DNA of 64,000 nucleotides from contig NZ_CP019070.1 in assembly GCF_001956695.1 (NCBI RefSeq), positions 806,001 to 870,000 of the forward strand, in the 5' to 3' direction. Under the pieces are notes generated by a model. It worked only from the letters and a program-made list of their open reading frames with translations. It made no database searches and had not been told where the DNA came from. This DNA comes from Poseidonibacter parvus. GTDB lineage: Bacteria > Campylobacterota > Campylobacteria > Campylobacterales > Arcobacteraceae. Below, piece after piece: positions 7,208-10,211 of this stretch. Position numbers and translations under genes: made by a program. Position 1 is the first letter of the stretch, and every line of letters begins with the position of its first letter.

Positions 7208-8209
7208 ATGATAAAAAGAGAGTTTTTACAAGATCACAAAAGTTTAGATTTTAAGTTTTACCAAAATGTTGATGATTTTATTGTTGAAGAAGTTCCTATT
7301 AAATTTGCTGGTCGTGGTAACTTTATAATTGCAAAAATAAAAAAGCAAAAGCTTGGAACTTGGGATTTAATAGAAAGTTTAGCAAAGGGTTTACGAATAT
7401 ATGACAATGAATTAGGATATGCAGGACTTAAAGATAAAAATGCGACTACAACTCAATATATTTCAATTCCTAAAAAATATTCAAAAGATTTAAAGCAATT
7501 TAGACACAATAAAATTAAAATATTAGAAACAACACTTCATGGATCTAAACTAAATATTGGTGATTTAATTGGAAATAAGTTTGAAATAAATTTACATGAA
7601 GTTCAAGCTCAAGATGTTGGAAAAATTGAAAAACTTTTAAAGCAAATTTCAAAAGTCGGAATGCCAAATTATTTTGGTTTCCAGAGATTTGGTTATGATG
7701 GCTTAGAAAACTTAGAAAAAGCTAGAAAGTATATTTATGAAGACTACCAAATAAAAGATAGAAAAATATCAAAAATGCTTGTAGCTGCTTATCAAAGTGA
7801 TTTTTTTAATAAATGGTTAGTAGAAAGACTTAAACAATCAGATGATAGTTTTAAAGCCATGGATGGTGATGTATTTAGAGATTATAGAGAAGATAAATTC
7901 TTTACTCCTAAAAACTTCACAGAGATAATGCAAAAAGATTTTGAAGATAAAAAAATAGTACCAACAGGATTATTGCCTGGTCAAAAAGCATTTAGAAGTA
8001 TTAAGGATGCTAGAAAAATTGAAGAAATGTTTGATGATACTTATATCAAAGAAAAAGGTTACAGACGTGATGCAATAGTATATCCAAGTGATATTTCTGT
8101 AAGTTTCGATAAAAATACTAATAAATGTAAAGTTAAATTTACATTACCAAAAGCTTCTTATGCAACTGTTTTAATTGAAAACATTGCAAACAGAAACTTA
8201 AAAGCTTAA
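7208..8209 (+). CDS. truD: tRNA pseudouridine(13) synthase TruD
   Basis: Isomerises U13 of tRNA(Glu) to pseudouridine. 333 residues, close to the E. coli protein. The signature YAGLKDKNATTTQ with the catalytic Asp (residue 76) is intact, and the family motifs NYFGFQRFG and LPG(Q)KAFRS are present. The start follows a good -10 box, though the ribosome binding site is weak. The gene is alone in its transcription unit and convergent with the thioredoxin-like gene, sharing a hairpin terminator. Confidence 0.95.
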   Translation: MIKREFLQDHKSLDFKFYQNVDDFIVEEVPIKFAGRGNFIIAKIKKQKLGTWDLIESLAKGLRIYDNELGYAGLKDKNATTTQYISIPKKYSKDLKQFRHNKIKILETTLHGSKLNIGDLIGNKFEINLHEVQAQDVGKIEKLLKQISKVGMPNYFGFQRFGYDGLENLEKARKYIYEDYQIKDRKISKMLVAAYQSDFFNKWLVERLKQSDDSFKAMDGDVFRDYREDKFFTPKNFTEIMQKDFEDKKIVPTGLLPGQKAFRSIKDARKIEEMFDDTYIKEKGYRRDAIVYPSDISVSFDKNTNKCKVKFTLPKASYATVLIENIANRNLKA

Positions 8210-8223
8210 TATTAATAGGTGAT

Positions 8224-8253
8224 ATTTTAGTAAGTATGATTACTTACTAAAAT
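8224..8253. terminator. Bidirectional hairpin terminator, truD / thioredoxin-like gene
   Basis: Perfect 13-bp inverted repeat (8224-8236 with 8241-8253) with loop TGAT, between convergent genes. The stop codon of the minus-strand gene (8240-8242) lies at its centre. Confidence 0.7.
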
Positions 8254-8605
8254 AGACTTTCTCATAATTTTCTAATTGCTCAACACTTTTAACACCAAGT
8301 TTTTTAGCAACAATTTTTCCATTTTCCATATAAACTAAAGTTGGAATACCTTTAATTTCAAATTGTGCTGTAAGAAGTTTTTGATCTTCTATGTTTAACT
8401 TATAAATTTCTACGTTATCTTGTTTTCTTGTATTATATTTTGTCAAGTTTTTACCTAAAACCTTACAAGATGGTCACCAAGTTGCATAAAAATCAATAAT
8501 TACATTTTTGTTTTCAAGTTTACTTTCTATATTTGCAAGAGTTAAATGCTCAAATGCAAAAAGTGAGTTAAAACCTAAAAATAAAATAGCTATTAACTTT
8601 TTCAT
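8240..8605 (-). CDS. Periplasmic thioredoxin-like selenoprotein (UGA = selenocysteine 44)
   Basis: Read through the in-frame TGA at 8474-8476, this is a complete 121-residue thioredoxin-fold protein. It starts at ATG 8605 behind AGGA. A signal peptide (KKLIAILFLGFNSLFA) comes first, then IIDFYATW-U-PSCK, where U replaces the first Cys of the usual WCxxC active site, then the conserved cis-proline loop GIPTLVY and a normal C-terminus. Only the UGA interrupts the frame; the sequence on both sides is coding and in register. A SECIS-like hairpin follows directly. A conventional annotation would give a 68-residue fragment from TTG 8446, without active site or signal peptide. Likely a periplasmic thiol oxidoreductase. 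Alternative: a pseudogene with a point mutation at this Cys. Confidence 0.85.
8440..8468 (-). promoter_or_regulatory. Bacterial SECIS element downstream of the UGA codon
   Basis: On the minus strand, bases 6-34 after the UGA fold into a 12-pair stem (11 bp plus one A-G mismatch; one G-U pair) with 5-nt apical loop AGGUA. The loop GGU falls at bases 19-21 after the UGA. In E. coli fdhF the AGGU of the SelB-binding loop is at the same distance. The hairpin lies within the coding sequence, as bacterial SECIS elements do. Confidence 0.8.
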
Positions 8606-8756
8606 TTTATGTATCCTTTTTTAAATTTTTCTATTATAGTTTTTGAATGTGTAGTTTTTGTTTAGAAAATTAAAATAAGACATTTTTTATCTTGTTTTAT
8701 ATGTGTTTTTGATATCTTATTTTAAAATTAATATATTATTAAAATAAAGAGAAAAA

Positions 8757-10211
8757 ATGAAATTAAATGACTTAAAAGTTAATATGGAATATTTCCATAT
8801 GGATGATAATTTATACCAAAAATTAGATGCAACACCTTTAAAAAATCCAAAGCTTATTTCCTACAATAAGCAAGCATGTGATTTAATAAATTTAGATTAT
8901 AAAGAGTGTGAAACAAAAGATTTTTTAGACTTTATGAATGGTAGTAAAGTCCTAAAAAATTCTCAACCCTTTTCAATGGTTTATGCAGGTCATCAATTTG
9001 GATACTTTGTACCACAATTAGGTGATGGAAGAGCAATAAATCTAGGAGCTATAAATAAGTGGCAACTACAAACAAAAGGTTCAGGGCTTACTAAATATTC
9101 AAGAAGAGGTGATGGCCGTGCAGTTTTAAGATCATCTATTAGAGAATATATAATCAGTGAAGCAATGCATGCTTTAAAGATACCAACTACCAGAGCTTTA
9201 GCAATAATTGATTCAGAGACTTTTGCACATAGAGAATGGGAAAAAGAATCCTGCTCAATAGTTTTAAGAATGTCTCCTTCTTGGATTAGAATAGGTACAT
9301 TTGAGTTTTTTGCAAATACAAAAAACTCTAAAGAAAATCTTAGAAAGCTTGCAGATTTAGTTATTGAAGAATCATATGTTCACTTAAAAGATGAGAAAAA
9401 TAAATATGAAAAGATGTTTTATTCACTTGTTGATAAAACAGCTTTAATGATAGCTTACTGGCAAAGCTATGGTTTTATGCATGGAGTTATGAATACAGAT
9501 AATTTTTCAATGGCAGGTCTTACTATTGATTATGGTCCCTTTGCTTTTATGGATTATTTTGATAAAAATTGTATTTGTAATCACACAGATGCTGAAGGAC
9601 GATATTCTTACAATAATCAACCATATGTTGCAAGATGGAACTTAATTGTATTAGCAAATGCATTAAAAGAAATTTGTGATGAAGAAAAACTTTTAGAGTA
9701 TATAAATACTTTTATTCCTCAACATGAAAACGTTTATTTAGAGCAAATGAATAAAAGAATAGGGCTTGATGCAGTAAAAAGTGGCGATAATAATTTAGAT
9801 TTAATACTTGAATTATTAGGTGCATTAGAGAGTTCAAAAATGGATTATAATGTATTCTTTTATGAACTTACAAAAATCAAATCTTTTGATGAAATTAGTT
9901 TAATTACAAATTTATGTGTATTTAGACAGCCTTTAGAAGATTGGTTTAAATCATATGAAAAAGTTTGTCAAAACCAAAATAGTAGTTTTACTAAAAGAGT
10001 TGAAATTATGAAAAAAGTAAATCCAAAATATATAATCAAAAACTATATGCTTCAAGAAGCAATAGAATTAGCTCACGAAGGTGATTATTCTCTTGTAAAC
10101 GATTTACTTAATATTGCACAAAACTCATTTGATGAGCATGAAAAGTTTGAAAACTATTCAAAACCAACTCCAATGGAATATGCAAATGTGAAGCTTTCTT
10201 GTTCTTCATAA
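8757..10211 (+). CDS. selO: SelO/YdiU-family protein adenylyltransferase
   Basis: Pseudokinase-fold enzyme that transfers AMP from ATP to hydroxyl side chains of target proteins, including redox proteins, in the studied family members. 484 residues. Motifs: PFSMVYAGHQFG, QLGDGRAINLG, QTKGSGLTKYSRRGDGRAV, HGVMNTDN (242-249) and DYGPFAF (258-264). The protein ends in CSS, with Cys482 at the position occupied by selenocysteine in vertebrate SelO, so this is the Cys form. It is divergent from the thioredoxin-like selenoprotein gene, with about 150 bases between the starts. AAAGAGAAAA precedes the ATG. Confidence 0.94.
   Translation: MKLNDLKVNMEYFHMDDNLYQKLDATPLKNPKLISYNKQACDLINLDYKECETKDFLDFMNGSKVLKNSQPFSMVYAGHQFGYFVPQLGDGRAINLGAINKWQLQTKGSGLTKYSRRGDGRAVLRSSIREYIISEAMHALKIPTTRALAIIDSETFAHREWEKESCSIVLRMSPSWIRIGTFEFFANTKNSKENLRKLADLVIEESYVHLKDEKNKYEKMFYSLVDKTALMIAYWQSYGFMHGVMNTDNFSMAGLTIDYGPFAFMDYFDKNCICNHTDAEGRYSYNNQPYVARWNLIVLANALKEICDEEKLLEYINTFIPQHENVYLEQMNKRIGLDAVKSGDNNLDLILELLGALESSKMDYNVFFYELTKIKSFDEISLITNLCVFRQPLEDWFKSYEKVCQNQNSSFTKRVEIMKKVNPKYIIKNYMLQEAIELAHEGDYSLVNDLLNIAQNSFDEHEKFENYSKPTPMEYANVKLSCSS

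Follow-up and report, generated by a model that had tools for sequence, protein, structure and literature searches.

Does the single UGA codon inside a short thioredoxin-like frame of Poseidonibacter parvus encode selenocysteine (Sec), and if so, with which redox pathway would the resulting protein be connected? The locus lies in a stretch of 64,000 nucleotides (the window; positions 806,001 to 870,000 of contig NZ_CP019070.1), and all coordinates below are those of the window unless another contig is named. The P. parvus genome comprises 2.87 Mb in one contig, and the genus also includes Poseidonibacter lekithochrous and P. ostreae.

A thioredoxin frame with one in-frame UGA

An earlier note, made from the letters of this DNA, placed a periplasmic thioredoxin-like selenoprotein at 8240-8605 without giving a strand. 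The coordinates stand, and the strand is minus, as the plus-strand reading of the same interval is closed by many stops. Read from 8605 to 8240, the minus strand yields 121 codons followed by TAA, MKKLIAILFLGFNSLFAFEHL...IIDFYATWUPSCKVLGKNL...GIPTLVYM...VYFSK*, with exactly one in-frame TGA and no further stop, just as the note had described; this TGA, codon 44, occupies the first position of the predicted active site W-U-P-S-C-K (Table 1). A mechanical ORF caller returns only 8446 to 8240, a 68-aa product with a TTG start that is without the active site, so that standard gene calling, as the note had anticipated, misses the catalytic center of a predicted redox enzyme. The 77 codons past the TGA are free of stops (p ~0.0002 from base shuffles of this AT-rich stretch). 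Together with the alignment of the TGA to the catalytic Cys column of the Pfam thioredoxin profile (PF00085, E=1.6e-20) and the presence of TGA at the same codon in homologues, this excludes a chance origin of the open frame past the TGA.

Table 1. Features of the predicted selenoprotein locus and its neighbors (window coordinates).
Feature	Position	Strand	Basis
Predicted Sec-thioredoxin gene, one in-frame UGA	8240..8605	-	translation; UGA at same codon in homologues
AAGGA, Shine-Dalgarno-like, 8 nt 5' of ATG	8614..8618	-	sequence
Signal-peptide-like N-terminus, residues 1-17, MKKLIAILFLGFNSLFA	8555..8605	-	sequence; low pLDDT in residues 1-20; conservation
Codon 44 (UGA), predicted to encode the selenocysteine that opens UxxC	8474..8476	-	translation; homologues
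Cys47, resolving Cys of U-P-S-C, the protein's only Cys	8465..8467	-	translation; invariant in alignment A3
Predicted SECIS hairpin, apical loop AGGUA (8456-8452) on a 7-bp stem, with a 1x1 mismatch and 4 bp below it	8440..8468	-	folding, comparison, model R1
cis-Pro88 of thioredoxin fold (GIPT)	8342..8344	-	invariant in alignment A3
Divergent neighbor, a SelO/YdiU family member (protein adenylyltransferase family) in its Cys form	8757..10211	+	NF000658, E=2.5e-149
truD (tRNA pseudouridine synthase), convergent neighbor	7208..8209	+	TIGR00094, above cut-off

That the product is thioredoxin-like is borne out by profile and predicted structure alike. It scores 73.5 bits against PF00085 (gathering cut-off 23.5), and the features looked for in a PF00085 protein, namely a thioredoxin fold (here predicted), UxxC and cis-Pro, are all present. 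The AlphaFold model has a mean pLDDT of 90.8, with low values confined to the first 20 residues and the C-terminal one, and its best PDB matches are thioredoxins (TMq 0.80). Judged by profile score, the protein is related to the cytoplasmic thioredoxin equivalog TIGR01068 but is no member of it, since its 84.9 bits fall below the curated cut-off of 96.8. In alignment A3, which holds 29 members and in which U was entered as C, C/U44, C47 and P88 are invariant, bearing out the cis-Pro loop noted past the UGA. M1, F16 and A17 are likewise invariant and K2 and K3 nearly so; the N-terminal MKKLIAILFLGFNSLFA-FE resembles a signal peptide and is similar in kind across A3; the signal peptide proposed in the note is a putative one, judged by eye and by conservation.

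Predicted selenocysteine decoding at codon 44

The UGA sits where homologues have Cys, in a host that encodes the means to decode it. Each component named in the earlier note as worth looking for is present above its curated cut-off: selA (559 bits), selB (296 bits), selD (351 bits) and selC, a tRNA-Sec with anticodon tca (47.8 bits). The absence of selB or selC, which the note would have taken as refutation, is thereby not observed. The same genome has at least two further predicted selenoproteins (L168 and L018), one FdhA (HQARI-U-HSS) and SelD itself (QAAG-U-AAKMGPG), in each of which the in-frame UGA is followed by a GG-loop hairpin.

Downstream of codon 44 the transcript is predicted to form a SECIS hairpin whose AGGUA apical loop, of the GGU type, begins 17 nt past the UGA and is carried on a 7-bp stem above a 4-bp lower stem. 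These dimensions lie within published criteria for bacterial SECIS elements, which call for a loop of 3-9 nt with G in the first two positions, a stem of 4-16 bp and a distance of 16-37 nt after the UGA (PMC13188914), and the element resembles the common SECIS of Epsilonproteobacteria, whose loop G is invariant (PMC4607533). Folded singly, it gives z=-1.07; single-sequence folding energy being weak evidence, a comparative test was used. In a set of 19 distinct sequences, standard pairs filled 91.9% of the cells, against 34-63% in slid registers, and three pairs had changed on both sides, in 18 cells; relatedness inflates these counts, but the slid-register control retains it. Six Poseidonibacter genes, compared over codons +2 to +12, show not a single synonymous difference, in contrast to the variable remainder of the gene. 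By comparison of sequences, then, the hairpin is conserved with compensatory pairs.

Stem length by itself is a poor guide. Measured against synonymous shuffles, single hairpins are unexceptional (P 0.08-0.6), 7-bp stems with AG loops also occur in a few Cys forms, and the mechanical stem-length test by itself fails to tell Sec and Cys forms apart. The signs that discriminate Sec hairpins in these sequences are energy, loop sequence and conservation: Sec forms fold at -3.6 to -8.6 kcal/mol and Cys forms, with the exception of one P. lekithochrous gene (L023), at 0 to -4.6. The SECIS model R1 scores the window hairpin at 72.3 bits and, when run over the genome, found no other comparable match, fdhA and selD included; R1 is thus specific to this family and unfit to list the selenoproteome.

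A UGA at this codon is present in 22 genes of 20 genomes, spread over several genera, among 104 Arcobacteraceae genomes; when 399 genomes of the order were screened, two more UGA genes came up, in another Campylobacterales family and with the same AGGUA hairpin. Across Arcobacteraceae, selB was detected in 19 of the 20 UGA-bearing genomes vs 51 of the 84 others (Fisher p=0.003). No selB match was obtained in two UGA-bearing fragmented MAGs, G096, the exception among the twenty (86% complete; selA was also not found there), and G390, one of the two genomes outside the family (92%, ~300 contigs). Orthologues carry UGA at this position in some relatives and Cys in others. Their frames continue intact 3' of the UGA, contrary to the disruption that the earlier note had named as fatal to its claim, and dN/dS past the UGA is ~0.1-0.4 in UGA-UGA pairs of close relatives and similar before it, which indicates purifying selection downstream of the codon. 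TAG matches in G078 and G079 were read as ordinary gene ends and not as recoded codons, because the frames concerned are unbroken to their end.

These observations bear on two other explanations. Since UGA is one base away from the Cys codons UGU and UGC, and P. lekithochrous has UGU, a Cys gene broken at codon 44 by a nonsense mutation or a sequencing error might look the same; this is very improbable given the same-codon UGA in 21 other Arcobacteraceae genes of several genera and in two outside, the intact and selected frames past it, the maintained hairpin, and a genome that has selA, selB, selD and tRNA-Sec. General recoding of UGA in this organism, for instance as Trp, would also let an open frame be read through it and is more improbable still, as UGA ends 6 of the 46 window ORFs of at least 200 codons and so acts as a normal stop, homologues carry Cys and not Trp at the UGA column, and tRNA-Sec and selB are encoded. 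Both readings were dropped on the strength of the conserved UGA, the intact frames, the continued use of UGA as a stop and the Cys of the homologues. Codon 44 therefore almost certainly encodes selenocysteine, making the window gene a predicted periplasmic selenoprotein of the thioredoxin type, much as the earlier note had proposed, on the sequence evidence of the Sec machinery, the conserved UGA, the intact frames and a SECIS with compensatory changes.

Exchange between Sec and Cys

On a protein tree built with the U/C column masked, a Cys clade of 25 rows stands apart from the Sec rows, except for two Cys genes nested among the latter; one very divergent Cys row (L027b) is a further exception, and without it three U/C changes suffice. 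This suggests one change from Cys to Sec followed by two from Sec to Cys, a direction that depends on the root. L023 is the main gene of P. lekithochrous (G093), where UGA is found in a second paralogue. L023 has UGU for UGA and from that codon on matches the window gene at 47 of 48 bases; its hairpin is intact, and R1 still gives it 65 bits. It is likely a very recent change from Sec to Cys. The branch on which that change is placed rests on the protein tree, as a nucleotide tree of the seven Poseidonibacter genes, made after removal of the SECIS codons, did not resolve.

P. parvus itself has a second predicted exported thioredoxin paralogue (L144, C1:1323359-1323712; motif GCSAC). This is a Cys form with a decayed hairpin, and its orthologues L141-L143 (G092, G093, G094) keep UGA. 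In G092 the Sec form is followed in tandem by another second member, very divergent and with Cys (WCDIC; L145, C1:911868-912227).

Remnant SECIS structures were reported for only some Cys descendants in an earlier survey of selenoproteins (PMC1794560), in Table 1 of which the Trx family has no conversion entered; a partial search of the literature found no account of a recent exchange of Sec for Cys within a single genus. The likely reversion in P. lekithochrous would be so recent that the SECIS is intact, and selenium use may perhaps be switched by a single base. Closely related Sec and Cys versions occur within Poseidonibacter, in one case with the SECIS still intact after a codon for Cys, and this makes both the benefit of selenium for an exported thioredoxin and the start of Sec/Cys changes directly testable.

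A possible link to DsbD and comparison with known systems

DsbD supplies periplasmic oxidoreductases with electrons that come from cytoplasmic thioredoxin, and in Arcobacter DsbC and DsbD have been reported, with no classical DsbA/DsbB (PMC4460558). In the Cys clade the next gene after the thioredoxin is dsbD (identified by NF001419) in 25 of 25 cases, at a distance of 6-59 nt. In two genomes of another genus (G087, G088) the slot between a rhodanese-like gene and dsbD is occupied by Sec forms (L133, L139), and the dsbD neighborhood is kept with no adjacent trx in the genome of the window and in G093, G094, G099, G062 and G056. The P. parvus dsbD locus (L151, C1:2699500-2707500) has the conserved neighbors but, unlike its counterparts in relatives, no thioredoxin gene ahead of dsbD. 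We infer from this distribution that the Sec form may be the functional counterpart of the DsbD-linked Cys thioredoxin. That DsbD reduces it is fairly probable, given a Cys paralogue always before dsbD, a Sec form in the slot in two genomes and an empty slot in the genome of the window. The support for this step is gene order; against it, many Sec-form genes, that of the window included, lie away from dsbD, and there are genomes (G091, G098) in which both forms are missing.

In the proposed pathway, SelB with Sec-tRNA(Sec) would read the UGA as selenocysteine and the Sec translocon would export the protein, whose U44/C47 pair could then cycle between selenol-thiol and selenenylsulfide. Inner-membrane DsbD, with electrons from cytoplasmic thioredoxin, would reduce it, and in the periplasm it would in turn reduce disulfides or other thiols that have become oxidised, taking the role played in relatives by the Cys thioredoxin of the dsbD locus.

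It is less probable, though a serious contender, that the selenoprotein works independently of DsbD in another periplasmic pathway, for example feeding a peroxiredoxin-like protein or acting with SelO. In 11 loci from three genera, that of the Cys gene L023 included, its gene lies outside the dsbD operon and adjoins selO divergently, and seven genomes, G092, G035, G036 and G059 among them, have both a Sec form and the dsbD-linked Cys form; such independence sits poorly with the replacement of the Cys form in the dsbD operon of G087 and G088, and with the loss of trx from the dsbD slot in several genomes that have only the Sec form. The SelO of the window has Cys, not Sec, near its C-terminus. 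Returning to the DsbD-reduced thioredoxin, we would put at about even the chances of a wider history in which the Arcobacteraceae Sec form arose as a paralogue of a DsbD-dedicated Cys thioredoxin and replaced it in several lineages, and in which Poseidonibacter went back to Cys in two paralogues, in P. lekithochrous with the SECIS intact.

The selenoprotein family of UxxC Sec-thioredoxins is already established, and the window gene thus belongs to a known type. Both PMC13188914 and PMC9312934 list the bacterial Trx selenoprotein (PF00085, UxxC; example WP_010956703.1), which had seven members in 2006 (PMC1794560). The window protein shares with it the thioredoxin family, Sec for the first Cys of CxxC and a SECIS directly downstream, and differs in its occurrence in Campylobacterota, in having a Cys paralogue that shares an operon with dsbD and, perhaps, in its signal-peptide-like N-terminus; a partial search of the literature found no description of the putatively exported, DsbD-linked Arcobacteraceae subfamily. 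One thioredoxin selenoprotein among Epsilonproteobacteria was counted by Cravedi et al. (2015; PMC4607533); it comes from the same phylum and protein class, has a SECIS with an invariant loop G, and may belong to the same subfamily. Sec proteins of thioredoxin fold in periplasmic thiol exchange also include the thiol:disulfide interchange selenoprotein (PF13098, UxxC) and TsoB (NF045694, a rhodanese/DsbD fusion), whereas the window protein fits best with PF00085 and reaches only 36 of 805 bits against NF045694. Also close in kind is the Arcobacteraceae Cys thioredoxin encoded upstream of dsbD (WCPPCK), which likewise has a signal-peptide-like start, a length of ~120 and the same fold, with identity to the window protein of mostly 39-53%, but which differs in having Cys, no stable SECIS-like hairpin and another genomic place.
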